IMG/VR virus record: IMGVR_UViG_3300023106_000002
Coordinates: 31,560 to 95,559 of that record
Origin: a virus
Strand: one strand, 5' to 3'
Length of the DNA stretch: 64,000 bases
A model generated the notes under the pieces. It made no database searches. It was not told the origin of the DNA and was given only the letters and a program-made list of their open reading frames with translations. The position numbers and the translations under genes are program-made. The stretch's first letter is position 1. Every line of letters starts with the position of its first letter. Shown here in pieces: positions 3,001 to 50,715 of this stretch.

Positions 3001-6000
3001 AATGGTAAACTCAATGCAGATGTAGCACAAGATTTAATTACTGAGTATGAATCATGGGATAAGGATTATACTAAAGTACCTCAACAAGAGTTAAGAAATT
3101 GGTTAGATAAAATCGGTTATACTTTTACAGATGGAGCATGGCAACAAATATACACTAGCGGTGTATGGAATGCACAGAAACAGAATAATTTTAATGCTCT
3201 TTACACTCAAGATAAAGGTGGTTTATTTGTGCCACTTGTTAAGTATCTTAGAGGTGCAATCACAAACCCTAGTGAATTTGATTTTGATAACAAGAAAAAT
3301 ATATTTAGTAATCTTACTGGTGTGACAAATGCATTATCACTTGTAGAAGCACAGTACAATGCTAACTTAATTGCATTGTCATTTAGAGATTCAGGTAAGA
3401 ACATATCAACTCAAGTACCTACTAAGTTTGTTACTGATATGATTCAAAAGTTGAAAAGAAGTTTGAATGAACAAGGTAACACATACATTGATGATTTACA
3501 AGCAATCTCTTTTTCAAGTGAGTCTACTACTCTTGAGTTGTTAAAGAACAATTCTGAGTTTGCTCGATTAATGGAAATATCTCATTTAAGTTTAACTGCT
3601 GTTAAACAACGTGGTGATAATCCATCAAAAGCAGGTATTACTGATTTAGGAGATATCGATTATGATCTTGCAGTACTTACAGGTTTCCAAGACAGAAAAG
3701 GAGTACAGTTTGGTACTGACAACAAAATCAATGGTATCCCTGTTAGAATGGCACACATGTTATTCCCTACCATGTCAGATAAGACAACAGGTCTATTTAT
3801 GAGAACATCAGTATTTGATTTCTTAAAAGATAGTAACTTGTTATTTGAAACAGCAGAAGATGGTAAAGTTACAGGACTTGATGATAGTGTAAAGGATTTG
3901 CTTTTCACTCAACTTGTTATGCCTGAACTTAAACGTATAATTAATTTTCATCAAAAAGTAAAAGCTACAAATATTAAGAATTATGATAATGGTGCTATGT
4001 TATTTCATTTCATACCAGCACTAAATACTCTTACTGATGAAAGTGGTGTCAGGTTGATTGAGAAATTAGCTACTATTGAAAACTATACAATAGAAGATAT
4101 TGTTGCTCAGTATGGTAAAGCAATGAAAGATACTATTGAGAGAGTAATTAAGAAAGAAGTTGCTTTTAAAATGCAACAATGGAATGGTTATTCACGTACT
4201 GATAGAAATGGTAATGCTATACTTGATGCTAATGGTAATACTACATCAACTATGTTTGATAATGATTACTTTACTGAAGTAGGTAAAAGTCCTTCTAAAG
4301 ATTATGAAATTGGAGTATATGACTTTGTTATGAATAGTTTACTGTTTAATGCAGAAGTATTTAAAATCTTCGCAGGAGATATAGCAAACTATAGTCAAGA
4401 TAAAGTATTCAAAGAAAAAGGTGCTAAGAAGTTACCATATCAAATTGAAGAACCTTCAACTTATTTATCAATCAATAAAGAGATAGGAGTTAACTTAGGT
4501 AAACGTCTAGCACTTCTTATAGCACCTGGAAATAAAGTTGCAAACTCATACAATGAAAAATACAATCAAATCTTTTTAGAAGATGCTGTTGATATTTCAG
4601 AGAATGCTTCCTACCTTGTAAAGAACTTTTATGGTCAAAACATAGATGAAGAAATTGCTAAGTATAGATCATTAGAAGATGCTATTAATATTGCAGAACA
4701 ATCTAAAACAGATTCTAATCCTGAAAAGATAAATAAGATTAAAGATCAAATGTTGGATATGCGTAGAGATTGGGCTAAGAGATTTCCTGATTTAGATGCT
4801 TACTTTGATATTGAATCTACTGATGCTCAAGAATATTCTACATGGGCAGAACACTTATCTTTAATGGAAAGAATGGGTAGAATTACTGATAGTGAAAGAA
4901 ATAACATCTATAATAAGTTATTATCTTTCCAAGACTTGACTAAAGAAGAATTGAACTTAGTATTGCAACCTATTAAACCAGTACACACAGGTAGCTATAT
5001 CAACCAAGACTTTGATGTTAATCAAATGGTTTATATTAAGTCATCATCTTTTCCATTGATTCCTCAACTTACTGCGGGTACTAAACTCGATGAGTTAAGA
5101 GTTGCTATGGAAACACTTGAGGTAATATCAGGAAGATATACACGTGCTTCTTTTCAAACTGCTAATAAAGTTGGTGCTACTAAAAAGACAGTTAATCCAT
5201 TCGATTATAACTCAATTCTTGCTGGTGTCAGAGAGTATGATGAAAACGATGTTAACTCTACAGTAAGAGTACTTGACAGAAATAACTTCAGAATTCAACA
5301 AGATGTACCTTTCAAATCAGATAAGAAGAAAACTGATACAGTATCTATGGGTACTCAGTTCTTTAAATTGTTATTTGGTGATGGTATGTATAATATTGAA
5401 GATTTTAACTTGAATGGCAGAACTGTTACAGGTAAGAAATTATATGAACATTATAACTATCACTTTAGTGAGATAGTAAACAATAAGAAACAAGAGTTGT
5501 TTATGGACTTAGGACTTGACTCAAATGGTCAGGTATTAAATCAAGTACAATTCATTAAAAGCTTACAGAATCTTTTGATTACTGAAGCTACAAGTAGAGG
5601 TTATAGTTTAAAATCATTAGCAGGATTGAAGATAGAACAACTTCAAGCCAAAGCAGGATATTACTATGAGTTCAAAACTCCACTATGGTTATCGTCAGAT
5701 AGCAACAGATATGAATCATTACTTAATGCTATTATCACAAACAGGCTGATGAAGCACAAGATGCCAGGAAATGGATTTATTGCTGGGTCAGAAAGTGGAT
5801 TTAGATATACAGAAGATCTTAATAGTGTTGATAAGTCACGTATTATTTACTTAGATTCTTGGAATGGTAGAGAACTTCAAGGTGCTCATACAACAGATAC
5901 AGAAGGAAATGTTTCATTCAATTCTGCACAAGTATTTGTACCTGCTAAGTTTAAGAACTCAAAGAATGAATTGATTGATTTGTTTGAAGGTTTTAATAAT

Positions 6001-9000
6001 AAAACTAAAGAAGGTAAGTATGTTTACAGAAGAGACAATGGTACATTAGGACTTAAAGAAGGTTCTATTGATAAAGAGTTAATGAATTTGTTTACATTCA
6101 GAACTCCTACATCTTCTCACGTATCAGGTTCATCTGTAGAAATTGCAGGTATATTGCCTCCTGAAAGTGGAGACTTGATGATTGTACCTAAGAACTTTAC
6201 TAAACAGAAAGGTCTTGATTATGATATTGATAAGGAGTCTGCCTATGCATTAAATCACTATGTAGATGATAATGGCGCCATTAGAGTACTTGATGGTAAT
6301 GCTGTAACAGATATGTTACAGAAATATCAAAACGCTATAGACAAGATCAACAAAGAAAGTAATGCTATTGAGAGTAAAACTCAAGCATTAACTATCTTAA
6401 AAGAGATGTCTAATAGTTCAAGATTTCCATTGAGTGAAGAAGACTTGTTAGAATTTACAAACCCTGAGATAAGTGTGCAAGACATTGCTACACGTGCTAT
6501 GTGGAAATTGAAAACTAAGTTATCAGAGAATGAGTTTATCAGAACTCACTTAGTTGTATTCAATAACCCTAATCCTGTTGTACAGAACAAGATCAATAAA
6601 GTCTTATCTATTGATTTTGCAAAAGAACAAGCTGCAGCAATTGAAAAATTAGAGGCTGAGGGAGAAAAAAATAAAATTATTGCTCAATATATCAAGCAAG
6701 GATTATCACCTCTCGAAGCAGATAAAAAGTACCAAACTGAGGCTATGGATTATACAATGCTGACTTATTCTTATCAAAAAAATAAGATGAGTTTGGGTAG
6801 TATCGGGAAGATTGCTATTGGAGTATATGCAAACTATACTACATTCAATGGACTACTTCAACAAACTGAGGAACAAGTCTTCATGCGTAACAAAGAAGGT
6901 GATCCTACAATAATTAAGATTGGTAAATATGAAAGCAACGGTATATTAGGTGCAGAAAGAACACTTGATGGTGAGAGAACTACTGCTGAAGTATTTGCTG
7001 AAAAGGAAAATACTGCAACAGATAATGAGAAAGAACAAGTACTTGGTAGAGTAGGTGTGAATGAATCGACTATTAATGTTGATGCTCACATGACTTTACG
7101 TGGTTTTGATAAAGATGAAAATGGAAACTCAATATCATACATGTTACTGTCTCAACCTTTAGTTAAAGAACTTAATAAAAGACGTAAAGATAGTAAAGGT
7201 ATTCTTGGTGAATATATTGATGATAACAGTCTAATCAAATCAATGATTGAATCGTTATCAAATAATACTATTACTTATATTCAATCAGGAGAAGGTATGG
7301 ATTTGGAGTATTATTTCACCAATAAGTCTGACATGTCACAAGTTATTATTGATGGTGGTATGTTAAGTGGAAATAATATGCTTGATGGTATAACGTATAA
7401 TGGTGAAAACTTAGATGTACAAAGAGAAGCATTCATGACTTATATTGAACTTGAAAAAGAAGCTAAAGCAGTATCAAGCATTCAAAAAACTATCAATGTT
7501 AATACACTTGGTAAGTCAATGATTGAATCTCAATTGAAATATGAAGGACTTAAAGTATTAGCTGAAAACAAAAAAGTATCAGGAGTTCATAATTTACTTG
7601 GTAATTTCTTAACAAAGAAACCTGAAGATGTTAACAATGGATATTGGATAGGAGATTACTATGTAGTTCCTACTACACCTCAAGGACAGATTGTTATCAA
7701 TGGTTTACATTTAGGTAATACTTTGTATAAAGACTTCTTTCCTTATCAAGATAAAGCAATACTTGATGTTGTAAACGAAATACTTTCAGCTAAAGGTAAA
7801 GATAGTGTATCAGATGCTACAATGATTGATAACTTTGAAACCATTGTGGAAGGTATCAGAAAGTATATTAATTCTCGTCAAGGAAATAACATCTTTAATG
7901 TATCTCCTAAAGCTAAGAGATTTGATTTGTTTAAAGATACAGAAGATAATACTTCTCTTTCTACTTACATGTTAACTATACTTAAAGGAGATACTACTGG
8001 ATATAAAAAAGGATTGAAGTTCTTGAAAAATAATTCATTGATTAAAAGCTTTACTTATGATACTGGTATTGGTAACAATGAAGTATCTACTATTAAGTAT
8101 AACAATGCTGCTACTGATAACTTAGATGAAGAAGATTTATACAATGCAATACCTGAATTAGTATTAGCTAATTTACCATTGCCTGAAAGAAATGGACAAC
8201 CATATTCTACTATGCAACTTGCAGAAGATTTGGTAGCATATTCATTCCTTGAAGGAGGTGTACAAGAAGCTACTCAGTTTATCAAGTATGTACCTGTTGA
8301 GTTCTTAGAATCAATTGGGCAGATGGAAAATGATGTATTTGTACCAGCAAACAGAAAACTTCAGGGATTTAACTCCAAGAAGAATAGTGGTATTAATATT
8401 TTTGCTATAGCATTAGGAATGAAAGAAAATGAAACAAGTACATTTACTAAGCAGTACTTTCAACACAATCCTTCAGATGCTGCAAGGGTTTCATTTAAAG
8501 ATACTCGTGGTCAAAGTAGTTTCAAATACGTAAACACTATTGGTAAAAGTCCTTCTTTTGTTAGCATGAAAAACAAAGCAAAAGATGAAATGAACAAGTT
8601 CACTTTGTATCAAAACATGGGTAATGGTAATTATCAAGAGATTGATACACTTGGTAACTTTGGCATCAGTGAATATGAATATAAAAATGATGCGGTTGCT
8701 TCATTAATGACTAATAAAGTTAATGTTACTCCTGTAGCTAGTGTACAAGAAACAGAACTTGCTGATCCATCTATTACTACTGCATTGAATATTGATAACA
8801 ATACTTCGATTAAAGCAATACTTGGACAAATATCATCAATGAATTTTGCTCCTGAGTATGCTCACTTATCTACTGCTGCTGAATGGTTAGCACCTTTAGC
8901 TAAAAATAAAGGAGTATTTAGTTTTGATAATACTATTCGAGGAGCAGGTTTAGCAATGAGAGAAAGTCTTGATATAAGATTAAATCCTTCAATGACTATT

Positions 9001-9729: not shown

Positions 9730-12700
9730 ATGAGTTGTATAGGAGATAAAATAACAGAAGACTTAATAGGTAATGTAACTCATCCAAAGAAAGGGAACTT
9801 TACTATAAAAAAAGACAGTATCTTTATACCTGATACCGTCTTATCAGAAAATGGCAGCACTTATGGTGTTGTCAAATATGTTGAGCAACAACTTAATAAA
9901 AGATATGCAGAACTTTATGGTACTCTTGCTAATGACAACTTAGGTCAATTGACTTCATTAGTACCTTTTAATGATGGAATCAGAATTGATGTTGTTCCTT
10001 CTAAATCTGTAGAGAAAGCTATAGAGTACAAACAAGGTGAAGCCACAAGAGAAGAACTTAAAGAGATGATTGCTCAGGAATTGGCTGAAAATGAACAGAG
10101 TGATTTTGAAGTAAGAGATCAAGAAGGAAATCAATTCTTCGATCAAGAAGGAAATGTATATGCTACATTAGATGATGCTATTGCTGCATTTGAAAGAGAA
10201 GATCAATCTTATGATAGCTTCTTTCCATTAGCAGCACAAACTGTTATTCAACCTAACTACGAAGACTATATTATTCGTAAGCAAGAGTTGATTAAAAGAA
10301 TGGATAAACAAGTTGAGAAGTTATATAATGAAAAAAGGAATCTTAATACTCATGGTATCAATAAAAGGATTTCACGGTTTACTAAGATTAAGGAACAGCT
10401 TGAATTAGACGTAGCAAGATTTACATCAAACAATGATAAGCATTCACTTATTCAAGAATTCTTTAATAAAGACTTTGATTTAATCAACAGCTTACTGGAA
10501 GAACCTAGCTTAGATAATCTTTTCTTAGCTAAAGACTTATTCAAATATATCAAAAATACAGCAGATATACGATTAGCTAATATAGAGAATAAGTTATTTA
10601 CACCTAAGGCTAATACAACTTATAGTCCTGAAGTATTAGCACTGATTGCAAGTGTACATGAAAGAGTAAATCTTCAAGAACGTGATATAGAAGAAGCAGT
10701 TGATAAAGTGTTCATGACACTTCTTGAGAAAAATCAACAAAAACTTGAATCTTTATATCCTGATAAGAATCTTGAAGAAATTAAAGAAGAGTTATTGAAA
10801 AATCTTCAGGATATTACTTGGATTGAATCAATGTTTTTCGGACAAGGAGAAAATGTAACTTCTTCCAATAACATCATAGAGAACTTGATAAGAGTTGAAT
10901 ATGAAAAGGAAGTAGTTAAACAAGAAGGTAAAGCACAAACAATTATTGCTGACATCAATGCTTCTCTTCCAGCAGTTGAAAAACATCTTGCATTATTAGG
11001 GAAGAAGATTAAATCTACTTTAGGAGGAATTGTATATAGTGGATATGATTATCGTTTTCTATATCAAGTAGATAAGAAAGGTGATTATAAGTCATCGCTT
11101 ATTGGTAAGTACTCCTTGCAATGGGAGAACTTCATATACAACTTAAACAAAAATCATAACAATAATATTTATCTTGCAAGACAAATGAAAGACTGGGCAG
11201 AAGTTGAAAAACTTTTGATTGGTAAGTTCAATGACTTGAATGATAAATCAAATTTTGTAAACTTTACATTGCTTCACGATATATTTAATGATCCAATCTA
11301 TGATGAATTTAAGAAAGGTACTGATGTAGAAGCTAAAGCATATAAAGATAGTCTGATTCGTAACATTGGTTTTGATGAATATCAGAATGTTATTGAGGAA
11401 CAACGTAATCTTTTAGATAACTATCTTGAAGAAGTAGATTTGATTACAGAACAGAAGCTATTAAGTGAAGGTGTTGCAGATGTAAATGATTTAAGTGATG
11501 CAGCAAGACAGAACCTTAATTTGAGCATTGCAAGGTTGAATCCCGCCACATTTCTAGAATCATTTCTTGCTGGTAGAAAAGGAATGATTGAATACACTAT
11601 AGGAACTCAATCAAATGAGAAACCATCTTATTTGAAATACAATACTGTAGTACCTGCGAGAAAGTCTTTAACAGGTAAAGATACAGGATTCTATGATGCA
11701 AACTTCGATATGATTGAAGATAGTCCTGCTTTATATGCATTGTGGGCAGCTATTAAAGATGGTACTAAACTTATCAATGAGAATTTAATTGATTCTAATA
11801 TAAGTGTAAAGAAAAATTCATTACTCTTATGGAAGAAACAATTTGCTGAAGAGAGTGTTAACAAGGATGCTAAGTCTGTTATAAAACAAGGTTTAGGAAA
11901 TATGTTGAATTTAAAACAGTTTATTAAAGATATAGGAAGTGCTAAGTTACCTGATTATACTGCTAAAGATACTGTAGTATTACCAGCAGAAGTCAAATCT
12001 TTCAATGCAGCAGTTCATAATGACTTTGAAATAAATAAAACAGAACTTGCTAATATCTTAGGTACTCGTATAACTGATGAAACTAAAGTTGCATATAAAA
12101 CTCTCTCGTTAGACCAGCAAAAGAAGATTTATGAATTATTCGGATTTACAAATTCTCCTGATTTTGAAAGAGCATCAGGTGGATTATTTAAAGTAGAAGC
12201 ACTTAAGCGTTTTTCAGAGAAGAAGATCATGGATCAGCAAACTTTGAATACTCCTTTAATGATTAAAGCATTACTTGAATTCTCAGCAGAACATAGAGCA
12301 AAGACTAATTCTCTAAACGAAGTAAATATTTACAGAGAAAAGAGTAATAATATACGCAATCAAGAAAATACTTTATTCAGTAAGGAAGGTACTACAAGAA
12401 AGAGTGAAGTAGAAAGAAGTGATTTCTTCTATAAAACAGTACTACTTAATCAAAGAGAGAAAGACCATTCAGGAAACATTACTAAAATATTGACAAAGTG
12501 GGCAGATAAGAATGAATGGAACTTTGTTGGTAGACATTTCTACAAGAACTTTAAGAAAGATGAAAAAGTAATATATGATTCCGCTACTAAGCGATTAGCT
12601 AAAATAGAAGAAGAACTTGCTGACCCTGCTATCAATGATAAAGTTGCAGCAGCACTTCTCAAAGAACAAGAAGATTTAAATGCTCGTATTAGGTTGCTTG

Positions 12701-14541
12701 GTAAAGACTACTTAGCAAGTGCTGTATTTGATAATGTAGTTAATAAGTTAAGTGTACAAGTTGGATTAGGATTTAATATCTTAGCTAACATTAAGAACAG
12801 AATGCAAGGACTTACTTCTCTTATTACAAGAGATGGTGAGTTTTGGCAACGAGGAAATATATATCCTGTTAATCACTTTATAGGACTCAATAAAACTCGA
12901 TTCGTCAATCCTTCATATAAAGAAGAATGGGACAAAGCTAACTTGTTTATCAGACAGCTTAATCTTATACAAGATGGTACTAATGAAATACAACGTGCTG
13001 AAAATAAAATAAAATCGAAAGTGAGGTTTTTAAATCCTATGTATGGTACAGAAGTTGTGGAATGGTATAATCAATCTTCAGGTATTTTAGCTATGGCTAT
13101 GGATGTTGAAGTGACAGGTACGAATAGTAGAGTACCTTTATTTGATGGTTCTACTTTTCCAGCATTTGATATTGTAGATGGTACACTTAGATTAAAAGAT
13201 GAATTCAGAAATCCTGAAAACATCGCTCATTTTGAAGATGTAAGTTCAGAGGAAATGATTAATTGGAAAGCTAAAGTGGAAGATATGACACGTAGCTTAA
13301 ATGGAGATTACTCTAAGACAGGAGTTACACGTATTAAAGGAAGTATCTTCACTACTCCAATTATGATGTTTAAAACATGGATTCCTAAATACATATCATC
13401 AAGATATAGAATAGAACAGAAAAATATATTGACAGGAGAAACAGAAACTGGTTACTTAGTTTCTACTTTCTTAAATAAGAAAACGTCTTTCTCAGGAGGA
13501 ATGATGCTAGCAGTAACAGGACTACTTGGTATTCTAAGTAGTTCTCCTGCTATTATTGCATTGCCTATTTTTACAGGAGTTGCTGCTATGGGATTAGCAA
13601 GACATCATTTATCTAAGAAAGCAAGAGTAAATCAGTCAGCACCTTTTGTAGATGATACAGAACCTATTGCTATATTACAACAAGCAATGTATGTGTTGAA
13701 ATCTTTAACACCTTGGCAATTGGCAGAGATGCCTGTTAATTCAATACTTGGTAAACAGTTTATCAAACCTGTTGAATTCAAAGGTGATTTAACTCCAAAA
13801 GAACAAAGTGATGTAAGACTGATGATGCGTAATATGCAGAATGCAGCATTACTTATGTTGACTAAACTTGCAATTCAAGCCTTTCTTAGATTCAATGATG
13901 AAGATGAACCTAAAGGTAAAGCAGGAAGTGAACAACGTAAACGTTATGAAAAACAGCAAGAAGAAAAAGAAAAATGGCAAGCAGAACATAACTTTCTTGA
14001 AAATTTAGTTACAGGACTTTATCAAGAAACTTCACTTGCTGTAGAACCTACTTCATTACTCACTACTATGGGAAGTAAGAATGGATTACAAGGTCCAATA
14101 GATAAGATTATCAAAGCAAGTACTGCACTAGCAAACTACAACAAAGATGAAATACAAAAAGGAGCGAGAGCGGGGCAGTCTAAGACTGGTAATGCATTTC
14201 GTAAATGGTTGTTACCATCATTGTTTAGAGATTTAGGACATGATACATGGAGAGCAGGATTTGAATCATCTATGGAGAAAGAATGGGTTAACAATGAAGG
14301 AATTGATGGAGTATTCGATTCTCAATATAAAATTGATAAGAAAGAAGCTACTGGTAAACGTTCATTAGAGAAGTTACATTATCTTCAGGAATATGAAGAA
14401 AAGAACAATGTAAACATGGAAGACTTATCTACAAGTAAGCAAGATAAGATCGAGAAGAAAGCTAATAGAACAGCTAAGAAAGCAAGTCCTAATCCTGATC
14501 GAAAAGATTATGATGAAGAGCAAGAACTTAAAGATGAGTAA
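9730..14541 (+). CDS. Giant crAss-like virion/cargo protein, 1603 aa
   Basis: A 1603-residue protein that directly follows the RNA polymerase gene in the same orientation and closes the late block. Most of it is charged and predicted alpha-helical. A strongly hydrophobic, Gly/Ala-rich stretch (about 13495-13600, GGMMLAVTGLLGILSS onwards, roughly residues 1256-1290) could insert into or cross a membrane. The C terminus is highly charged (EEKEKW..., KKANRTAKK). crAss-like phages typically encode one or two further giant proteins beside the polymerase, thought to be ejected cargo. The placement and hydrophobic segment fit an ejection or membrane-translocation role, but no catalytic motif is visible, so function is inferred from context only. 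A strong hairpin terminator lies just after the stop. Confidence 0.7.
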   Translation: MSCIGDKITEDLIGNVTHPKKGNFTIKKDSIFIPDTVLSENGSTYGVVKYVEQQLNKRYAELYGTLANDNLGQLTSLVPFNDGIRIDVVPSKSVEKAIEYKQGEATREELKEMIAQELAENEQSDFEVRDQEGNQFFDQEGNVYATLDDAIAAFEREDQSYDSFFPLAAQTVIQPNYEDYIIRKQELIKRMDKQVEKLYNEKRNLNTHGINKRISRFTKIKEQLELDVARFTSNNDKHSLIQEFFNKDFDLINSLLEEPSLDNLFLAKDLFKYIKNTADIRLANIENKLFTPKANTTYSPEVLALIASVHERVNLQERDIEEAVDKVFMTLLEKNQQKLESLYPDKNLEEIKEELLKNLQDITWIESMFFGQGENVTSSNNIIENLIRVEYEKEVVKQEGKAQTIIADINASLPAVEKHLALLGKKIKSTLGGIVYSGYDYRFLYQVDKKGDYKSSLIGKYSLQWENFIYNLNKNHNNNIYLARQMKDWAEVEKLLIGKFNDLNDKSNFVNFTLLHDIFNDPIYDEFKKGTDVEAKAYKDSLIRNIGFDEYQNVIEEQRNLLDNYLEEVDLITEQKLLSEGVADVNDLSDAARQNLNLSIARLNPATFLESFLAGRKGMIEYTIGTQSNEKPSYLKYNTVVPARKSLTGKDTGFYDANFDMIEDSPALYALWAAIKDGTKLINENLIDSNISVKKNSLLLWKKQFAEESVNKDAKSVIKQGLGNMLNLKQFIKDIGSAKLPDYTAKDTVVLPAEVKSFNAAVHNDFEINKTELANILGTRITDETKVAYKTLSLDQQKKIYELFGFTNSPDFERASGGLFKVEALKRFSEKKIMDQQTLNTPLMIKALLEFSAEHRAKTNSLNEVNIYREKSNNIRNQENTLFSKEGTTRKSEVERSDFFYKTVLLNQREKDHSGNITKILTKWADKNEWNFVGRHFYKNFKKDEKVIYDSATKRLAKIEEELADPAINDKVAAALLKEQEDLNARIRLLGKDYLASAVFDNVVNKLSVQVGLGFNILANIKNRMQGLTSLITRDGEFWQRGNIYPVNHFIGLNKTRFVNPSYKEEWDKANLFIRQLNLIQDGTNEIQRAENKIKSKVRFLNPMYGTEVVEWYNQSSGILAMAMDVEVTGTNSRVPLFDGSTFPAFDIVDGTLRLKDEFRNPENIAHFEDVSSEEMINWKAKVEDMTRSLNGDYSKTGVTRIKGSIFTTPIMMFKTWIPKYISSRYRIEQKNILTGETETGYLVSTFLNKKTSFSGGMMLAVTGLLGILSSSPAIIALPIFTGVAAMGLARHHLSKKARVNQSAPFVDDTEPIAILQQAMYVLKSLTPWQLAEMPVNSILGKQFIKPVEFKGDLTPKEQSDVRLMMRNMQNAALLMLTKLAIQAFLRFNDEDEPKGKAGSEQRKRYEKQQEEKEKWQAEHNFLENLVTGLYQETSLAVEPTSLLTTMGSKNGLQGPIDKIIKASTALANYNKDEIQKGARAGQSKTGNAFRKWLLPSLFRDLGHDTWRAGFESSMEKEWVNNEGIDGVFDSQYKIDKKEATGKRSLEKLHYLQEYEEKNNVNMEDLSTSKQDKIEKKANRTAKKASPNPDRKDYDEEQELKDE

Positions 14542-27088: not shown

Positions 27089-27775
27089 TTATATCTCATT
27101 GTTAGTAAGACTTAACGGGATGAAGAATTCATAATAGAAAGGTACATCTCTATCTTTACTTCTTTCATATATGTTAGTCATGTGGTTAGTAAAAAACGCT
27201 GTCATAAGTGTAGCAATCATTGCTGCACTATGTGATGTTTGTTTCATGGTACATGGTGCATCTTGCACTTCTCCATCATCAAACAAGTTCTCTTCATATT
27301 GTGAAATAAGATCAGGAGTAACGCAAAAAATCTGCAATTGCTCCATCTCAAGTCTTCCATCAATAAAGATTGGTGTAACTGGACAATTAGGTACAGACCT
27401 TTTCCACACTTCAAATAAATCTTTCCTCGCTTTCATGTTATCGAAAGCGGAAAACATGAAGTGATGTGTTGGAGAATCTATTGTAATAGGTCGAATATCA
27501 GTATTGATACTCTTGTTATTAAACTCCATAATGACATCTTGTAAAGCTTGTACCTTAAACTTACCAATATCACTATGTCTGAATAACTGACCTCCTAAAT
27601 TGTGCTCTTCGATTCTGTCAAAATCGAATATGTTTATATCGAAACCAGCACGAGTAAGGAAGATGGCTAACCAACTTCCTATACCTCCTGCTCCTCCAAT
27701 CATAACTGTTTCATCTTCTTTAGGAAACCACGGGGCATCCTTGAATCTATTAAACTGTTGTAGCATTGTGTTCAA
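27089..27775 (-). CDS. E1/ThiF-like adenylating enzyme of PRTRC-type cassette, 228 aa
   Basis: Rossmann-type adenylation domain: MIGGAGGIGSWLAIFL (nucleotide loop, residues 26-40), DFDRIEEHNLGGQLF (the DxDxVxxxNLxRQ element, 51-65, with Gly in place of Arg), GKFKVQAL (71-78), and AFDNMKARKDLF (110-121). DAPCTMKQT has Cys175 at the position of the PSC motif seen in PRTRC ThiF proteins, a candidate thioester cysteine. No CxxC zinc pair is seen and there is no ubiquitin-fold domain. By family it would adenylate the C terminus of a ubiquitin-like protein. The start overlaps the JAMM gene stop by 26 bases. Confidence 0.85.
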   Translation of the reverse strand: MNTMLQQFNRFKDAPWFPKEDETVMIGGAGGIGSWLAIFLTRAGFDINIFDFDRIEEHNLGGQLFRHSDIGKFKVQALQDVIMEFNNKSINTDIRPITIDSPTHHFMFSAFDNMKARKDLFEVWKRSVPNCPVTPIFIDGRLEMEQLQIFCVTPDLISQYEENLFDDGEVQDAPCTMKQTSHSAAMIATLMTAFFTNHMTNIYERSKDRDVPFYYEFFIPLSLTNNEI

Positions 27776-31494: not shown

Positions 31495-32525
31495 GTGTTT
31501 TGATTTAGGAATTGTTGTAATACAGGTTGTCCTTTCTTTAAGTATAAATCTGATGGATCACTTATTCCCTTAGGATTAAGTTCTTCAGGCAACCATAAAG
31601 ATGTTGCCTTATCACGAAAGTGATTGTTTATAATAGGAACAAGTTTTTCAGAAGATGCGATACCTTGAGTATCATTATCATACCATACAATGACTTTACG
31701 AAAGCCTTTCACTATATTCATAAGTAAAGCTTCTGAAGGAATCATCCCTTCATTCTGAAGGTAGATTGCATACTTTCCATGATTAGTAAGTACTCTCCAA
31801 TCTTTGTATGATTTAGTAATGATTAGCTGATGACCAAATGGTGGTAACAAATGTAATCCGCCTATGTCATCTTTACGACATGTTGTGACGAATCTTCCCT
31901 TACCTTTTCGATGCGGAAAATAAATCTTTTTCCTCCCATCTTCATAATTTGTATCAGCATACGCAATATCATATACTCTGCTAGCTGTGTTCCCGTTCTT
32001 TCCATCTACTATATAGAACTTACTTACTGCAAATTGCTTATCATCAATTAAGTTCTGTTTACTTATACCATAACTTCTCCAAAACTTAGCATCTTGGAAT
32101 GTAAATGCTCGTGAATCAAAGTTAAGTGTGGCATACTTTCTTTCAATAGACTCTAACTTAAAAACTCCCTTAGTCTTTATCTTGTTCTTGATAAGTCTCT
32201 CGTAGACAAATTCAAGGGTTTGATAAAAATTAGGGAGTTTAAAGTAAAGTTTAACAGCATCAAAGCAGTCAAGTGGCTTATTATGTAATTGCTTACTTCC
32301 GTAATCAACAAACCTTAGCTTACCTGTAAAAGATGTAGTTCTTTCAAACCAACATCCTGCTCTGTTATCTGTTCTAAAAGGTGATGTAACGTAAACATAT
32401 TCAACTGGTTGATAACCAAACACCAATTCAAAAATCTCTTCTTGCGTAATGTACGCTAAGATTGCTTCCTGACTGATAAAACCTGTTCTATCTTGTGAAT
32501 CATCTTCGTATAGATTATGCTTCAT
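31491..32525 (-). CDS. DnaG-type primase with TOPRIM domain, 344 aa
   Basis: The N-terminal region (SPFRTDNRAGCWFE...LRFVDYGS...DCFDAVKLYF, about residues 48-95) follows the CHC2 zinc-domain pattern of DnaG but with most cysteines lost. The C-terminal part has an EGMIPSEALLMN segment and KVIVWYDNDTQG (about 272-283), the TOPRIM Glu and DxD. It would prime lagging strands next to the DnaB-like helicase. Shorter than bacterial DnaG (about 600 aa) because the helicase-binding domain is absent. Confidence 0.8.
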   Translation of the reverse strand: MKHNLYEDDSQDRTGFISQEAILAYITQEEIFELVFGYQPVEYVYVTSPFRTDNRAGCWFERTTSFTGKLRFVDYGSKQLHNKPLDCFDAVKLYFKLPNFYQTLEFVYERLIKNKIKTKGVFKLESIERKYATLNFDSRAFTFQDAKFWRSYGISKQNLIDDKQFAVSKFYIVDGKNGNTASRVYDIAYADTNYEDGRKKIYFPHRKGKGRFVTTCRKDDIGGLHLLPPFGHQLIITKSYKDWRVLTNHGKYAIYLQNEGMIPSEALLMNIVKGFRKVIVWYDNDTQGIASSEKLVPIINNHFRDKATSLWLPEELNPKGISDPSDLYLKKGQPVLQQFLNQNT

Positions 32526-42295: not shown

Positions 42296-42934
42296 TTAGA
42301 TCACTACCTGACCAGTTGCTTCCAACTCAGCTTTCAAGTTAGCAGACATGTACACATCTTCTGCATCAGCAGTACGCGCATCAATGTCTCCTTTGGCAAC
42401 TTTTGAAAAATAAGTTTGACGGTATTGGATTTTTCCGTTGTTGTCCAAAATCAGTTTGCCTCGCAAATCAGCAACATCATGTTTCTCTGAATATCTCACA
42501 GCTTGTCTGTCACCAATGCCATCAAGTGTAGTGATACCATTTGCAACAGCATACTTCTGATCGCTGGTCAATACTGGTTTGTTTGACAACACTTTGTAAA
42601 TGGTTGCATTTGGAAACTTGGTCAACTGTTCTTTCACCGCATCAACTGCTGTACCCAATGGCACATCAATCCATGCAACTCTTGTTTCAGTTGCTAAAAA
42701 TTCCTGTTCTGCGAAACCGAAGTCTTCTGTTGCGAAGATGTTATCCTGCATATCGTTGCTTACAGACTTTGACGGGTAGAAACTTTTCGTTTCTATAGTC
42801 TGTTTAATTTCAGCCGATTCAGTACCTTCTTTCTGCCAATCACTTTTGTAAACTCTTGTGATTTCCAAAGCGCCTTTTGTTGACTCCTGACGAACTCTAT
42901 CATTCGTTTGTGTCGTTGTGTTTAATGTTTCCAT
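42296..42934 (-). CDS. Unknown, probably highly expressed protein, 212 aa
   Basis: Not recognised. Hydrophilic alpha/beta protein with no Cys; starts METLNTTTQTNDRVRQ and ends ATGQVVI. Codon use is visibly richer in G/C than the surrounding genes, it stands alone between a 540-base non-coding region and a very strong terminator, and it precedes the replication helicases. These are signs of an individually regulated, abundant protein such as a DNA-binding factor (inference). Confidence 0.65.
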   Translation of the reverse strand: METLNTTTQTNDRVRQESTKGALEITRVYKSDWQKEGTESAEIKQTIETKSFYPSKSVSNDMQDNIFATEDFGFAEQEFLATETRVAWIDVPLGTAVDAVKEQLTKFPNATIYKVLSNKPVLTSDQKYAVANGITTLDGIGDRQAVRYSEKHDVADLRGKLILDNNGKIQYRQTYFSKVAKGDIDARTADAEDVYMSANLKAELEATGQVVI

Positions 42935-46011: not shown

Positions 46012-46377
46012 TTATTTGATTAGTTTTAACGCTTCTTGTAATGCAAGTTCTAATGCTTCTTCATAAGTGTTGCTAAAGAGAGTATTTTTCTCATAGTTAG
46101 TATCAATATGATATACACAATAACCCCATTCTTTACAGTCAGGTATAAGCGGTGCAACATATACAATAATGTTATGAACTTCTCTCAACCATCTTTGAAG
46201 TAATGATTGAGTTGGTCTTGAAATAGAGTCTGATTGCCATTCTGTATTTTTAGTAAAAGGAGAAAAATTCTCTTTGAACTCTTCGCCTGATGATCTAAAA
46301 TGATTTTGACTGGGTTCATTAAATCCTTTCTCTTTAGCTAACTTTGCAGTTTCTAAAGTAATAAGTTCATCTTTCAT
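46012..46377 (-). CDS. Hypothetical phage protein (PTQSLLQRWLREVH family), 121 aa
   Basis: Reads TLETAKLAKEKGFNE, SRPTQSLLQRWLREVH, then a beta region and TYEEALELALQEALKLI. This is a recurrent Bacteroidota phage/prophage pattern with no known role; the 14911-15390 protein looks like a distant copy. Its start overlaps the stop of the upstream gene by four bases. Confidence 0.7.
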   Translation of the reverse strand: MKDELITLETAKLAKEKGFNEPSQNHFRSSGEEFKENFSPFTKNTEWQSDSISRPTQSLLQRWLREVHNIIVYVAPLIPDCKEWGYCVYHIDTNYEKNTLFSNTYEEALELALQEALKLIK

Positions 46378-46714: not shown

Positions 46715-46925
46715 GCAAAGCAATAAATATCAGCGAAAACTCCATTCTCACGAGATGAGAATCACTCTTTTGCTTCTTTTATCATTTTTCATTAAATTTC
46801 TTCTGAAAATTAACATATACACTTTGGTCGGTGTTTTTACTTTTGAATTTCATTCATTGCATTTTTAAGTTTAAGGGGTTAAACTAGAAAACTGCTTCCT
46901 GTGCAAGGGAAGCAGTTTTTGTTTA
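46715..46925 (+). ncRNA. Candidate small non-coding RNA, about 210 nt
   Basis: Defined by an upstream host-type promoter and a 12-bp terminator hairpin with a T-rich tail; no ORF of useful size lies between. A short stem ATTCTCA/TGAGAAT around 46753-46771 is visible. All neighbouring genes are leftward, so this would be an independent rightward RNA that could also run antisense to the 3' end of the 46923-47126 gene. Function unknown. Confidence 0.45.
46888..46919. terminator. Bidirectional 12-bp hairpin terminator
   Basis: Stem AAAACTGCTTCC (46888-46899)/GGAAGCAGTTTT (46908-46919), 8-base loop, followed on the plus strand by TGTTT. It can end both the rightward RNA and the leftward gene whose stop is at 46923. 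Confidence 0.8.
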
Positions 46926-47126
46926 TGATAGCATCATCTTCGTGAAGGCTTCTTCAAGTGATGCATATAGGTCTGTATCTTTACCAATAGGTAAATCAGT
47001 TGGTGAAAACCATTTCACTTGTACTGTAATATCATGTCTCTTAACTTCAACACGATGATAGTCTTTACCATCGTGTTTGACTAAGTGATTAGATATTTTC
47101 TTGCTGGTTGAGTTTAATAACTCCAT
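46923..47126 (-). CDS. Hypothetical protein, 67 aa
   Basis: Not recognised; beta-rich with a YHRVEVKRHDITVQVKWFS segment and a helical end (LYASLEEAFTKMM). Overlaps the 112-aa gene upstream by 38 bases. Last gene of the metabolic-cluster transcript before the terminator. Confidence 0.55.
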   Translation of the reverse strand: MELLNSTSKKISNHLVKHDGKDYHRVEVKRHDITVQVKWFSPTDLPIGKDTDLYASLEEAFTKMMLS

Positions 47127-47427
47127 TTTCTACGTCTTTAAAGTAAAACTTAATTTCACATTTCTTGATCTTACCATTGTCATAGTAAGTACACTTGTAA
47201 GGTTGTTGTACAACTTCTTGATGTTCTCTGTCAGCGAATTCAATATTATTGATTTGAGTAAATAAAGATGCTAATGCCATTTCAGCATGACTTTGAATGT
47301 CATTACCTAATGTAATCAGCATTTCTTCACTAATATCAACTTCCATTGTAGCTTTAAATGATGTACTGAGAACAGTACCATCTTCATTGTATCGAATTGT
47401 AGCGATACCAATTTCTTTCTTTTCCAT
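47089..47427 (-). CDS. Hypothetical protein, 112 aa
   Basis: Not recognised. Alpha/beta, acidic, with YKCTYYDNGKIKKCEIKFYF in the C-terminal half. Ten bases after the methyltransferase gene and probably co-transcribed with it. Confidence 0.55.
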   Translation of the reverse strand: MEKKEIGIATIRYNEDGTVLSTSFKATMEVDISEEMLITLGNDIQSHAEMALASLFTQINNIEFADREHQEVVQQPYKCTYYDNGKIKKCEIKFYFKDVENGVIKLNQQENI

Positions 47428-47436
47428 GATTTTATG

Positions 47437-48180
47437 TTATAATACTCGATACACCATAATCTGTCTGTATCTGTAAACGGGTTTAAATTTGTCGTTGAGT
47501 TCCATGTAATGTCCTATACTTCCTGCTTGATTGTAGAAAATATACTGTCCTTTATGTACAGCTTTACTTAATTGTTCTACAAATAGCTTAGCAAGTTCTT
47601 GTCTTGCCATAGGTTCATACATAAATAATGCATCATAACCCTTCAGGTCATCTTGTTGAATTTTCAACAGATCTTTCAATTTAAGATTAAATGTGCCAGC
47701 ATATTCTGCAATAGATGTGAGAAAGCCTAGTTTAGCATCTTTAACGAAAACTTCTTCATTATCAATACCATCTAATGCAACTGAATATTTATTAAGAAAA
47801 TCAAATCGTTTATCACTTGAAACTACTTGAATAACTTTTCTAACAGCTAACAAGAAAAATCCTGCTCCTGCTCCCATATCTAACATCTTCTTGATTTTAA
47901 AATGTTCAATAAGTTCCACTATGATGTAACTCATTTCAAAGTGTGTTGGGATATAACCCCATTCACTTCCATCTTCTCCCTTTGGTCTACCAACTACATT
48001 ATTGTAATCAGAAGCGTATTTGTTACGAGTAAAGAAGTCATATACACCTTTCATAGCATGTATTTTCTCTGCTATATTAAACATGCTCTTCTTTTGAGTA
48101 TCGTTCAATTCAACAACAGGTTTTAGTGCTTTAAGTTTATCTCTAAAAGTTTTTCTTGGTTTTTTAGTTAATGTTTCCAT
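47437..48180 (-). CDS. SAM-dependent class I methyltransferase, 247 aa
   Basis: Motif I MLDMGAGAGFFLLAV (about residues 98-112) is the SAM-binding glycine loop; an acidic residue follows in the VALDGIDNEE segment (motif II) and YDALFMYEPMARQELAKLF corresponds to motif IV. The N-terminal 90 residues are helical with a YIPTHFEMSYIIVELIEHF segment before the core. It ends in a VYRYRQIMVYRVL strand. The substrate is unknown: neither a DNA (NPPY/DPPY) nor an rRNA signature is visible. It starts two bases after the isocyanide synthase homologue and so may modify its product. Confidence 0.75.
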   Translation of the reverse strand: METLTKKPRKTFRDKLKALKPVVELNDTQKKSMFNIAEKIHAMKGVYDFFTRNKYASDYNNVVGRPKGEDGSEWGYIPTHFEMSYIIVELIEHFKIKKMLDMGAGAGFFLLAVRKVIQVVSSDKRFDFLNKYSVALDGIDNEEVFVKDAKLGFLTSIAEYAGTFNLKLKDLLKIQQDDLKGYDALFMYEPMARQELAKLFVEQLSKAVHKGQYIFYNQAGSIGHYMELNDKFKPVYRYRQIMVYRVL

Positions 48181-48182
48181 GA

Positions 48183-49085
48183 TTATGCTGCTTTAAAGTA
48201 ATAAGGTCTTCCATCTTTCATGATAAGTTCATGTCCTGCTGCAATAGCATCTTTTCTGTGCATCGTTGAAAATACACCTTTGTCTACAACTAATGCTGCG
48301 TGCCATGCTGAATGATGAGCATTTGGTGAGTTAATCAGTTTGAATGAATACTTTACACCATTATTAATTGATGGATGCATTGACAATCTGATGTGATCGC
48401 CAAGATTAGCACGAACTAAGCCTGAATATGCTTCATTTCTGAGCATCATTTCACGAGTTAGAATTTTTGCTCTCTTTGCTTGCTGGTTCTTTGAAGGGAA
48501 ATCAAGATATGCAATCTCCTCTTCCATAAAACGCAGCATACCACGATATAATGTATTAACATCAGCATCTAATAAGATTCTACGACTAAGTTCTTCTTCA
48601 GTAATACCAAATTGACTAGTCAATTTACCTTGTAATGTATTAATTGTTGAAGTTCTATCATAGAAATCTCTTAGATTTAAAATTCTTACTGGTGCTGATC
48701 CAATCATATCAGTTGAAATCTCCTGATAGGCATCCACAGTATTTTCACTAACACCAAGCACATCACTAAAGGCAAAGCCATCTGATGCAATGGTAACAAT
48801 GATTCCCGGTTCATATACAGATTTAACTGCAAGATTGAATGCATCGAAATTAGCTAAAGTTGCTTCTTCTGCCATATCAGGTAGAGTTCCAAGTACTTTA
48901 TCACGAGTATTGGTAGATTTCATAGGAAATCCCATGATTGAAAATAAGATAGGTTTGTTCTGAGAAACAAACACGTTAAGTTTGTCTCTCAGTACTGATT
49001 TACCTATCAAATCATATTGGTCTGTTGCTAAAGGGTTCATTCTGAAACCTTCAAAAATCTGAAGTATTAATCCAAGTGTGTCCAT
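48183..49085 (-). CDS. Isocyanide (isonitrile) synthase homologue, PvcA/DIT1/IsnA family, 300 aa
   Basis: Conserved blocks of the family are present in order: GFPMKSTNT (residues 52-60), DKVLGTLPDMAEEATL (62-77), YEPGIIVTIASDGFAFSDVL (91-110), HIRLSMHPS (231-239), a SAWHAALVV segment (259-267; usually TPWH), and HELIMKDGRPYYF at the end. PvcA-type enzymes turn the amino group of Tyr or Trp into an isocyanide using ribulose-5-phosphate. Length matches the family. There is no adjacent PvcB-type Fe/2-oxoglutarate oxygenase; instead a methyltransferase follows and a cupin dioxygenase-like gene lies upstream. The phage role and substrate are unknown. Confidence 0.88.
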   Translation of the reverse strand: MDTLGLILQIFEGFRMNPLATDQYDLIGKSVLRDKLNVFVSQNKPILFSIMGFPMKSTNTRDKVLGTLPDMAEEATLANFDAFNLAVKSVYEPGIIVTIASDGFAFSDVLGVSENTVDAYQEISTDMIGSAPVRILNLRDFYDRTSTINTLQGKLTSQFGITEEELSRRILLDADVNTLYRGMLRFMEEEIAYLDFPSKNQQAKRAKILTREMMLRNEAYSGLVRANLGDHIRLSMHPSINNGVKYSFKLINSPNAHHSAWHAALVVDKGVFSTMHRKDAIAAGHELIMKDGRPYYFKAA

Positions 49086-49105
49086 GATTTGAATGTGTTT
49101 TTGTT

Positions 49106-49633
49106 TTATTGTGGTTGTCTACATGCTGGGTAAGGACAGTCAACTGATGGTTCATCTTTTACAGCATTTCGACTGTCATATTTTTTAATAGCATCTTCCA
49201 ATCCTTGTAAAGGATTATCTTTAGTAGTATCTTCTTGTTTAACATCAGAATTGATGTTTTCAGGTGCAGTTGCATTCTTAACAGGATGATCAAAAGTAAA
49301 TTGAGCCATTTTCACAGCAACTGCTGATTGAGTTGATTGTTCTCTTCTTTCTTTACGCATGTTTGCAAGAACAGCAAGAAGTTCTATTGCATCATGTGTA
49401 AGAGCAATTGTAGTTCTTGTGATGTTTTTTGGTTCAAAGATTGTTTCGGTAGTTCTACCAATAATCTTTTTCATTCTTCTGCGCATGATGATAATGTAAC
49501 CATCACCTTTTTCTTTGTCCATAAGAGTAATTTCAACTTTGCCTGTTCTACCTTGAATAGCATTATCAAAGTGTCTAACCATAAGAGTTTTACCAATGTT
49601 CGATAACTTTGCATCGTTTTGTTCTGTGTTCAT
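49106..49633 (-). CDS. Hypothetical protein of the isocyanide synthase cluster, 175 aa
   Basis: Not recognised. The first 105 residues are beta-rich and basic (VEITLMDKEKGDGYIIIMRRRMKK, then helix LTHDAIELLAVLANMRKER); the remainder is disordered and acidic, ending in DCPYPACRQPQ. Lies between the cupin and isocyanide synthase genes, with a terminator hairpin separating it from the cupin. Confidence 0.6.
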   Translation of the reverse strand: MNTEQNDAKLSNIGKTLMVRHFDNAIQGRTGKVEITLMDKEKGDGYIIIMRRRMKKIIGRTTETIFEPKNITRTTIALTHDAIELLAVLANMRKERREQSTQSAVAVKMAQFTFDHPVKNATAPENINSDVKQEDTTKDNPLQGLEDAIKKYDSRNAVKDEPSVDCPYPACRQPQ

Positions 49634-49664
49634 GTGTTTAACTTATTAATGATTAATTTAAAAA

Positions 49665-49690
49665 AAGAGTGCAAGGTTAATTGCACTCTT
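49665..49690 (-). terminator. Intrinsic terminator (leftward)
   Basis: Perfect 10-bp stem AAGAGTGCAA (49665-49674)/TTGCACTCTT (49681-49690) with a 6-base loop and a run of seven T on the minus strand. It ends the cupin gene transcript. Confidence 0.87.
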
Positions 49691-49710
49691 ATCTGGCCTT
49701 GTGGTATTTA

Positions 49711-50715
49711 TTACACTTCAGGAAATACAACAGTACCATCTACGATAGCAATGTTATGAAACTGATGAAATGCTTCTTTAGCATCATCATTTAATTTCAA
49801 TAACGTCAATCCCATTCTTAACGGGAACGTATCAAGTAAATGACTTGCTGTTTCTGATGCTATTACAGCATTGTCTTGTACTCTGAAACCATGTGCTTTC
49901 ATTACTGGTGGACCAGTAACTACAATGTAATGATCTCCATACTCAGGTACATTAGTACTTCTTACAAGTACAACATCACCTTTTTGAAGATACATACCAT
50001 CTTTTGAGTTAATGCGTTTAACATCAAAAGGATTCAATGGAAAATGAGCAACTGTGTAAGCATTGTCTCTTCCATCACGAGTATGCTCAGGTAAATAATG
50101 TAACGATACAGCATTGCCAACTGATACAAAGTTATGTACAAGATTGACTCTTGTTACATCAGGCTTTTGCATTTGATACTCAGATACAAATACACCTTTC
50201 TCTTTGATCTCAGTTAATACTGGTCTTACAATGCGATGTTCAAGGTCAACAATACGATAAGTATTTACACGAATGCGTCCTGAAAGAACTTCTTCATGCA
50301 TATAACCATCAGAATGACCATGTACAGGTGATGTAAATCCATCTCCCCATCTCGCAATGACCAATTCTTTTCCTTCTTTCCATGCTGTTTGACCAGCATA
50401 AGAAACTACAGGACTCGGCGCCTCCATTGCAATGATTGTACGATCAAATTCTCCTTTTGCTGGTTCGTTTTCAAGTGTCCAATCATCTTTCTGCAACTGT
50501 TCTGACAAGTGCTGCATAACTTGTTGCGTAACATTAATCTTCTCTTGAAGATATTCATCACCATCTGTAAGTACAGGTAATGATTCAAAGTATTGTTCAT
50601 ATCCTGCTCTGTACATTTTCATGTGTTCAGGTTGTCCAATGTAAGCGATTTTTGCAATGTCTTCTACAGGTGTAGTACTTGCATTAAGATGTGTTGATCT
50701 TTCTAATGTGTCCAT
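49711..50715 (-). CDS. Cupin thiol-dioxygenase-like protein (cysteine dioxygenase fold), 334 aa
   Basis: The core ELVIARWGDGFTSPVHGHSDG (about residues 117-137) with HxH at His132/His134, then EEVLSGRIRVNTYRI, and later HNFVSVGNAVSLHYLPEH with His206 as likely third iron ligand, follow the cupin pattern of cysteine dioxygenases, which oxidise thiols to sulfinates. At 334 residues it is longer than CDO (about 200); about 80 residues precede the core and about 120 follow it. Substrate unknown. It begins the transcript segment leading to the isocyanide synthase homologue. Confidence 0.7.
   Translation of the reverse strand: MDTLERSTHLNASTTPVEDIAKIAYIGQPEHMKMYRAGYEQYFESLPVLTDGDEYLQEKINVTQQVMQHLSEQLQKDDWTLENEPAKGEFDRTIIAMEAPSPVVSYAGQTAWKEGKELVIARWGDGFTSPVHGHSDGYMHEEVLSGRIRVNTYRIVDLEHRIVRPVLTEIKEKGVFVSEYQMQKPDVTRVNLVHNFVSVGNAVSLHYLPEHTRDGRDNAYTVAHFPLNPFDVKRINSKDGMYLQKGDVVLVRSTNVPEYGDHYIVVTGPPVMKAHGFRVQDNAVIASETASHLLDTFPLRMGLTLLKLNDDAKEAFHQFHNIAIVDGTVVFPEV

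Follow-up and report, generated by a model that had tools for sequence, protein, structure and literature searches.

The genome of a crAss-like phage encodes a homologue of the isocyanide synthases (ICSs), in a cassette with a cupin resembling cysteine dioxygenase (CDO) and a small protein of ~110 amino acids. Four phage contigs carry these genes in a common order (CDO-like cupin, ICS, small protein): the phage studied here (phage A), two phages from IMG/VR (phage B, contig L001; phage C, contig L002) and a contig assigned to a bacterial MAG (L013). The three genes have been transferred together, their setting is that of phage genomes, and the ICS is a member of its enzyme family in which core residues are kept. 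With moderate confidence, and on grounds of sequence, we read the genes as an accessory cassette of the crAss-like phage that spreads horizontally and encodes a pathway of the isocyanide type, in which a three-histidine (3-His) cupin would replace the PvcB-type or P450 partner. Known ICSs come from bacteria, from fungi and from a small number of other eukaryotes; isocyanides themselves are reactive compounds that bind metals and have so far been known from bacteria and fungi.

A phage-borne isocyanide synthase homologue

The stretch of DNA analysed (the window, 64,000 nucleotides) runs from base 31560 to base 95559 of a virus record 95,559 bp long. The ICS homologue is an intact 300-codon ORF with an ATG start on the minus strand at 48183-49085; the plus strand across this interval has many stops and is not open. 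The original prediction had named no strand. Assignment of the 300 amino acid protein, a core member of the cassette, to the DIT1_PvcA family draws on Pfam, NCBIfam and PDB matches, conserved residues and a phylogenetic tree. DIT1_PvcA (PF05141) is the sole Pfam family matched, with a score of 198.6 bits (cut-off 26.4; E = 1.9e-58) and a match that spans positions 3-272 of the 273 in the profile; the copy on the L013 contig scores 219.5 bits. The original prediction of a DIT1_PvcA homologue had named such an HMM search among its checks, and the search places the protein inside the family. Its further claim that the main PvcA/DIT1/IsnA blocks are kept also stands, as every motif quoted can be located in the ORF: FPMKS (residues 53-57), KVLGTLPDMAEE (63-74), YEPGIIVTIASDGFAFSDVLGV (91-112), IRLSMHPS (232-239) and WH (261-262). 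The NCBIfam PvcA equivalog (NF045653, L-tyrosine isonitrile synthase) is matched with E = 2e-33, but the score of 115.6 bits lies far below the cut-off of 600, so that the protein falls in the family yet is not recognisably a tyrosine-specific PvcA. Sequence matches in the PDB are to 9dhm, 9dh4 and PvcA 3e59 (E = 2e-28 to 2e-25; 26-27% identity), and from the full-length match to 3e59/9dh4 we infer a PvcA fold for the phage ICS.

Conservation across bacterial ICSs, in place of published active-site residues, was used as the yardstick for core residues: across 16 diverse bacterial ICSs, the columns shared by 15 or more were picked out and the four phage copies compared at each. Residues K56, S57, K63, D70, E73, S101, D102, D108 and Y120 are retained by each of the four phage ICSs, as are E189, R216, R233, S235, H237, K245, W261 and H262. 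The main change among the strictly conserved charged or polar core residues is D to E at position 190 of the window protein. Two outer arginine columns (152 and 185) vary between the phage copies. Positions occupied by hydrophobic, aromatic or small residues are, by contrast with the core, consistently altered in the phage proteins (S to N at 217, G to S at 247, Q to S at 239, I to M at 236), and the tryptophan of bacterial ICSs at 257 is replaced by a variable residue. Since these four substitutions are found in every phage copy, they might mark an ICS-fold protein with a non-catalytic or different catalytic role, such as sensing of ribulose-5-phosphate or amino acids. We regard this as very improbable, the charged and polar core being kept, unlike that of typical pseudo-enzymes. 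The pattern of altered and kept residues instead fits retention of the core chemistry, possibly with a different substrate, and we think it likely that the phage ICS is active in condensing an amino acid with ribulose-5-phosphate. As conserved positions are unlike those of the PvcA enzymes acting on tyrosine or tryptophan, the substrate may not be tyrosine; and as several residues invariant among bacterial ICSs differ in every phage copy, the reaction itself could differ too. Family substrates are known to go beyond tyrosine and tryptophan, fungal CrmA making valine isocyanide (PMC9381783).

The virus record encodes terminase, portal, major head/capsid protein, DNA polymerase and helicase, together with crAss ring and capsid Pfam families. 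The portal and DNA polymerase are 66% and 61% identical, respectively, to those of the Flavobacterium phages FpV4/Fpv3 (Fipvunavirus, crAss-like). The phage core is collinear with that of Fpv3 through the replication genes, including those for DNA polymerase and helicase, as far as a gene at 42296-42934. Beyond this gene lies an accessory region whose sole Fpv3 counterpart is a small gene at 46012-46377, and for the ICS region (47089-50715) Fpv3 has no counterpart. The cassette, missing from Fpv3/FpV4, sits in the accessory early region of a crAss-like phage. The original prediction was therefore right to describe the gene as phage-encoded, and a prophage or a bacterial gene mistaken for a phage gene is ruled out, as the whole record is that of a crAss-like phage collinear with Fpv3. 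A ThiF/E1-like protein encoded at 27089-27775 of the window is 73% identical to an Fpv3 protein and represents a core gene of the phage group.

In the window, L001 and L013, the genes of the cassette are not preceded by Shine-Dalgarno sites. This is the expectation for a Bacteroidota host, and the host of the window phage is most probably a member of the Bacteroidota.

Order, relatives and transfer of the cassette

Searching IMG/VR identified two further phages with a relative of the ICS (L001 and L002), and several profile scans of IMG/VR for more relatives of the cassette returned these same two loci only. When GTDB genomes were searched with a profile that included PvcA, one phage-type relative (L013) was found together with 57 bacterial ICSs. 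The genes overlap or nearly touch in the relatives. In phage B, the cupin, ICS and small protein are encoded at 5025-5972, 6001-6903 and 6916-7266, and in L013 at 3057-3977, 3974-4855 and 4852-5163, with neighbours overlapping by 4 bases. In phage C, the cupin is represented by its C-terminal domain alone (5657-5986), with the ICS following from 5983 and then the small protein. The window cassette has the common order plus two extra genes, for a 175-aa protein and a methyltransferase-like protein.

The L013 contig (CALMTA010000210.1, 30.8 kb) was binned into an uncultured Neisseriaceae MAG. Six of its non-cassette proteins match the replication region of the window phage, among them those of the uracil-DNA glycosylase (UDG), primase-region and helicase genes. 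These shared replication genes and the absence of Shine-Dalgarno sites before the cassette genes led us to reject the Neisseriaceae as a bacterial source, and L013 is most likely a phage contig mis-binned into the MAG. The original prediction had stated that no phage system built on an ICS was known. In so far as the searches found no relevant paper and no ICS match among the 50,697 phage records of INPHARED, this is borne out, but the same cassette is present in two IMG/VR phages and in the mis-binned contig.

In blastp comparisons of all window-phage ORFs with phage B, the three cassette genes and nothing else are in common; with phage C, there are the three cassette genes and one short match. 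Because phages B and C each share essentially the cassette alone with phage A, the cassette has moved as a unit between unrelated backbones, and with its neighbours conserved, the possibility that the ICS is a stand-alone gene is ruled out. Outside the cassette, blastp finds a single gene common to phage B and the L013 contig. Its product is a DUF7873 protein (40% identity between the two). In both, the gene follows the cassette at a short distance on the downstream side (12517-13326 of phage B in L003 numbering; 5598-6368 of L013), and neither the window phage nor phage C was found to have it. A ParB/GmrSD_N-like protein is also encoded near the phage B cassette, at 11745-12491 (L003 numbering).

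When the four phage proteins are placed in a tree together with 16 diverse ICSs from bacteria, they group in a single clade with support of 100/100 and a long stem. They are 42-55% identical to one another in pairs, with L001, L002 and L013 at 54%, 51% and 48% identity to the window protein. Identity to bacterial ICSs is about 30% (25-31% for the 57 from GTDB genomes, about 29% for plasmid ICSs including that of Hymenobacter). A closer cellular ancestor was sought among the plasmid and GTDB-genome ICSs, a sample that excludes Bacteroidota chromosomes, and none was found. ICS homologues are present in 32 of the 291 sampled genomes in the phylum of a Bacteriovoracaceae MAG, compared with 4 of the 399 sampled for the phylum to which the Neisseriaceae MAG belongs; those of the former phylum are not part of the tree. 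The location of the cassette in a variable accessory region would suit a recent capture of a bacterial ICS without selected phage function, or a stray insertion. The tree and the contigs largely refute this, and we give it hardly any credence: long selection is required to explain four divergent, intact copies that share a long stem and whose core residues and neighbours are conserved although their backbones are unrelated.

The cupin and the other partner genes

The original prediction overlooked the partner genes of the ICS, which are the more informative part of the locus. The cupin is a 334 amino acid core member encoded at 49711-50715 on the minus strand and conserved upstream of the ICS in the three other phages (in phage C as the C-terminal domain only). 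It comprises an N-terminal CDO-type domain (Arg92, His132, His134, His194, Ser204, His206) and a C-terminal domain of ~110 amino acids. The window protein matches Pfam CDO_I (PF05995) with 23.0 bits, exactly at the cut-off of 23 (E = 6e-5), and the L001 and L013 copies are not listed by Pfam for CDO_I. When the PDB was searched with a profile of the four cupin proteins, CDO chains alone matched with E under 0.01 (4e-4 at best), and a Foldseek search with a low-confidence model (pLDDT 61) puts mostly CDOs at the top, with probabilities of at most 0.90 and E values that are not significant.

All three full-length cupins (window, L001, L013) possess the H-x-H motif, a third histidine, the substrate-carboxylate arginine and the S/T-x-H motif, which align with those of type I CDO. 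R92, H132, H134 and H194 lie at equivalent motifs, a 3-residue gap being required to align the third histidine. The phage proteins differ from CDO in their very weak sequence similarity and their extra C-terminal domain, and the alignment contains no equivalents of Tyr157 and Cys93, which form the cross-link of mammalian CDO, although the S/T and H of the Ser153-His155-Tyr157 triad are kept. With the His and Arg motifs present and the Tyr and Cys absent, the protein is probably a 3-His iron cupin and not a cysteine dioxygenase.

The C-terminal domain is the best conserved part of the cupin, and profile scans found no occurrence of it outside the cassette. A CDO domain was sought in the phage C contig without success; the C-terminal domain alone persists there. 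This suggests that the C-terminal domain, the ICS and the small protein constitute the irreducible core, the oxygenase domain having been lost or replaced in phage C. Either oxidation is not obligatory, then, or another oxygenase substitutes; to propose the Tet_JBP-type oxygenase of phage C, encoded several kb from the cassette, as the replacement is speculative.

In the PvcAB, IsnAB, ICS-DOX and Dit1-Dit2 pathways, as in the phages, the ICS adjoins a gene for a putative metal-dependent oxygenase. The phage partner, however, is a CDO-like 3-His cupin accompanied by a new small protein, whereas the cellular partners are Fe/2OG oxygenases (PF02668) or P450s; annotated bacterial ICS loci have a TauD dioxygenase in Hymenobacter and a P450 in Streptomyces. 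No cupin or small protein was found beside bacterial ICSs in the loci fetched (about 4 kb to either side, or about 1.5 kb for ten Bdellovibrionota loci), and no PvcB (PF02668) homologue was found among the scanned phage ORFs, a set that omits some ORFs, short and giant ones included. The phage ICS, then, has in common with PvcA and IsnA (PF05141; Pseudomonas PvcA 3e59, 9dhm/9dh4) a full-length family match and the polar core residues, and is set apart from them by its 26-27% identity, its separate clade, its place on phage genomes and the lack of a PvcB partner among the scanned ORFs. Given the linkage, it is reasonably likely that the cupin works in the same pathway as the ICS.

The small protein (112 amino acids; 47089-47427, minus strand) is also a core member, with homologues directly downstream of the ICS in L001, L002 and L013. 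Its predicted structure is beta-beta-alpha-beta-beta (pLDDT 62), and a fold search with this model gave no meaningful match in the PDB. Neither the ICS, the cupin nor the small protein matches a PADLOC defence system at E 0.01. The 175-aa protein encoded between the cupin and the ICS (49106-49633, minus strand) has no family match in Pfam, NCBIfam or PADLOC and was not found in the other three cassettes. A pattern scan, which is no evidence of function, identified two terminator-like hairpins. One, of 10 pairs with a T run, separates the cupin gene from that for the 175-aa protein (49665-49690, minus strand); the other, of 14 pairs, lies at the end of the unit comprising the small-protein gene and a 67-aa ORF (46887-46920) and was listed on the plus strand, its stem being symmetrical.

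Between the ICS and the small protein, and separated from the ICS by 2 bp, the window phage encodes a SAM-methyltransferase-like protein of 247 amino acids (47437-48180, minus strand), with weak matches to Methyltransf_31 (E = 0.009) and to PADLOC mad2 (E = 1e-7). Its position raises the question of whether a macromolecule (phage DNA, tRNA or protein) is what the cassette modifies. In this reading the ICS would act on a polymer- or nucleotide-bound amino group, which the cupin and the methyltransferase would tailor. The window phage also has ThyA, a dNMP kinase and UDG, and phage C encodes a Tet_JBP-type 2OG oxygenase (10286-11101) and a group-1 glycosyltransferase (4617-5555; both L011 numbering), which are typical of DNA hypermodification. 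We nevertheless find such a role distinctly improbable. The methyltransferase-like protein is missing from the other three cassettes, blastp having found no relative of it on those contigs, the Tet_JBP protein was found in one phage only and several kb away, and characterised ICSs use free amino acids. ThiF and UDG, moreover, have collinear counterparts in the cassette-free Fpv3, in which thymidylate synthase is found too; these proteins need not belong to the pathway, and we rejected ThiF, ThyA and UDG as members of it.

Proposed product and role of the cassette

In the pathway that we favour, the ICS would condense an amino acid, at its alpha-amine, with ribulose-5-phosphate to form an amino-acid isocyanide, as its family and conserved residues imply. 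The CDO-like 3-His non-haem iron cupin, to judge from linkage and metal motif, would then oxidise or otherwise process this product, and the small protein might have an accessory role, for example in binding, delivery or immunity.

Yeast Dit1 offers a different outcome. It belongs to the same Pfam family as the phage ICS and differs in having a P450 partner, in serving the eukaryotic spore wall and in its reported product, which is N-formyl-tyrosine and not an isocyanide; PvcA is reported not to substitute for it (PMC7345447). Assignment to the family alone therefore leaves the product of the phage ICS unfixed. The phage enzyme might yield N-formyl amino acids as Dit1 does, or make an isocyanide merely en route to a formamide, so that the cassette would build an N-formylated product, and the many altered positions that are invariant in bacteria would be in keeping with this. 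We consider it unlikely, as the polar core residues match the set found in PvcA/IsnA-type ICSs of bacteria; isocyanides, besides, hydrolyse to formamides, which leaves some doubt over the Dit1 case (PMC7345447, PMC9381783).

As to what an isocyanide-type product might do, the original prediction had suggested that it could poison metalloenzymes, chelate metals or modify a macromolecule. Isocyanides are ligands of haem iron and copper. Valine isocyanide has inhibitory activity against E. coli and S. aureus (PMC9381783). These properties, and the consideration that a small diffusible inhibitor could serve many phage backbones, lead us to favour a metal-binding inhibitor at work inside the infected cell. 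Speculatively, synthesis would take place in early or middle infection, beside the replication genes, and the isocyanide would inhibit a metalloenzyme of the host, of a defence system or of a competitor. We put forward this inhibitor role only tentatively. Slightly better placed, though still short of an even chance, is the broader possibility of a dedicated small-molecule pathway spreading horizontally among phages, in which new partner chemistry, the cupin acting on an amino-acid isocyanide, gives a free isocyanide that serves in the course of infection as a metal-directed inhibitor or in counter-defence, which would be the first viral natural-product pathway of its class.

The enzyme family is already known. 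Its occurrence in phages, the cassette and the partner appear undescribed in the sources available to us; no report of a phage isocyanide synthase was found in a search that lay largely outside the subscription literature. The deep phage clade enlarges the substrate space of the ICS family, and a CDO-like cupin working with an ICS, if true, would be a new partner reaction and a concrete enzyme pair. The persistence of the three-gene order on phage backbones that are otherwise unrelated is an argument for an isocyanide-type metabolite being of use to phages; small-molecule chemistry would then join the means by which phages are known to act on their hosts.
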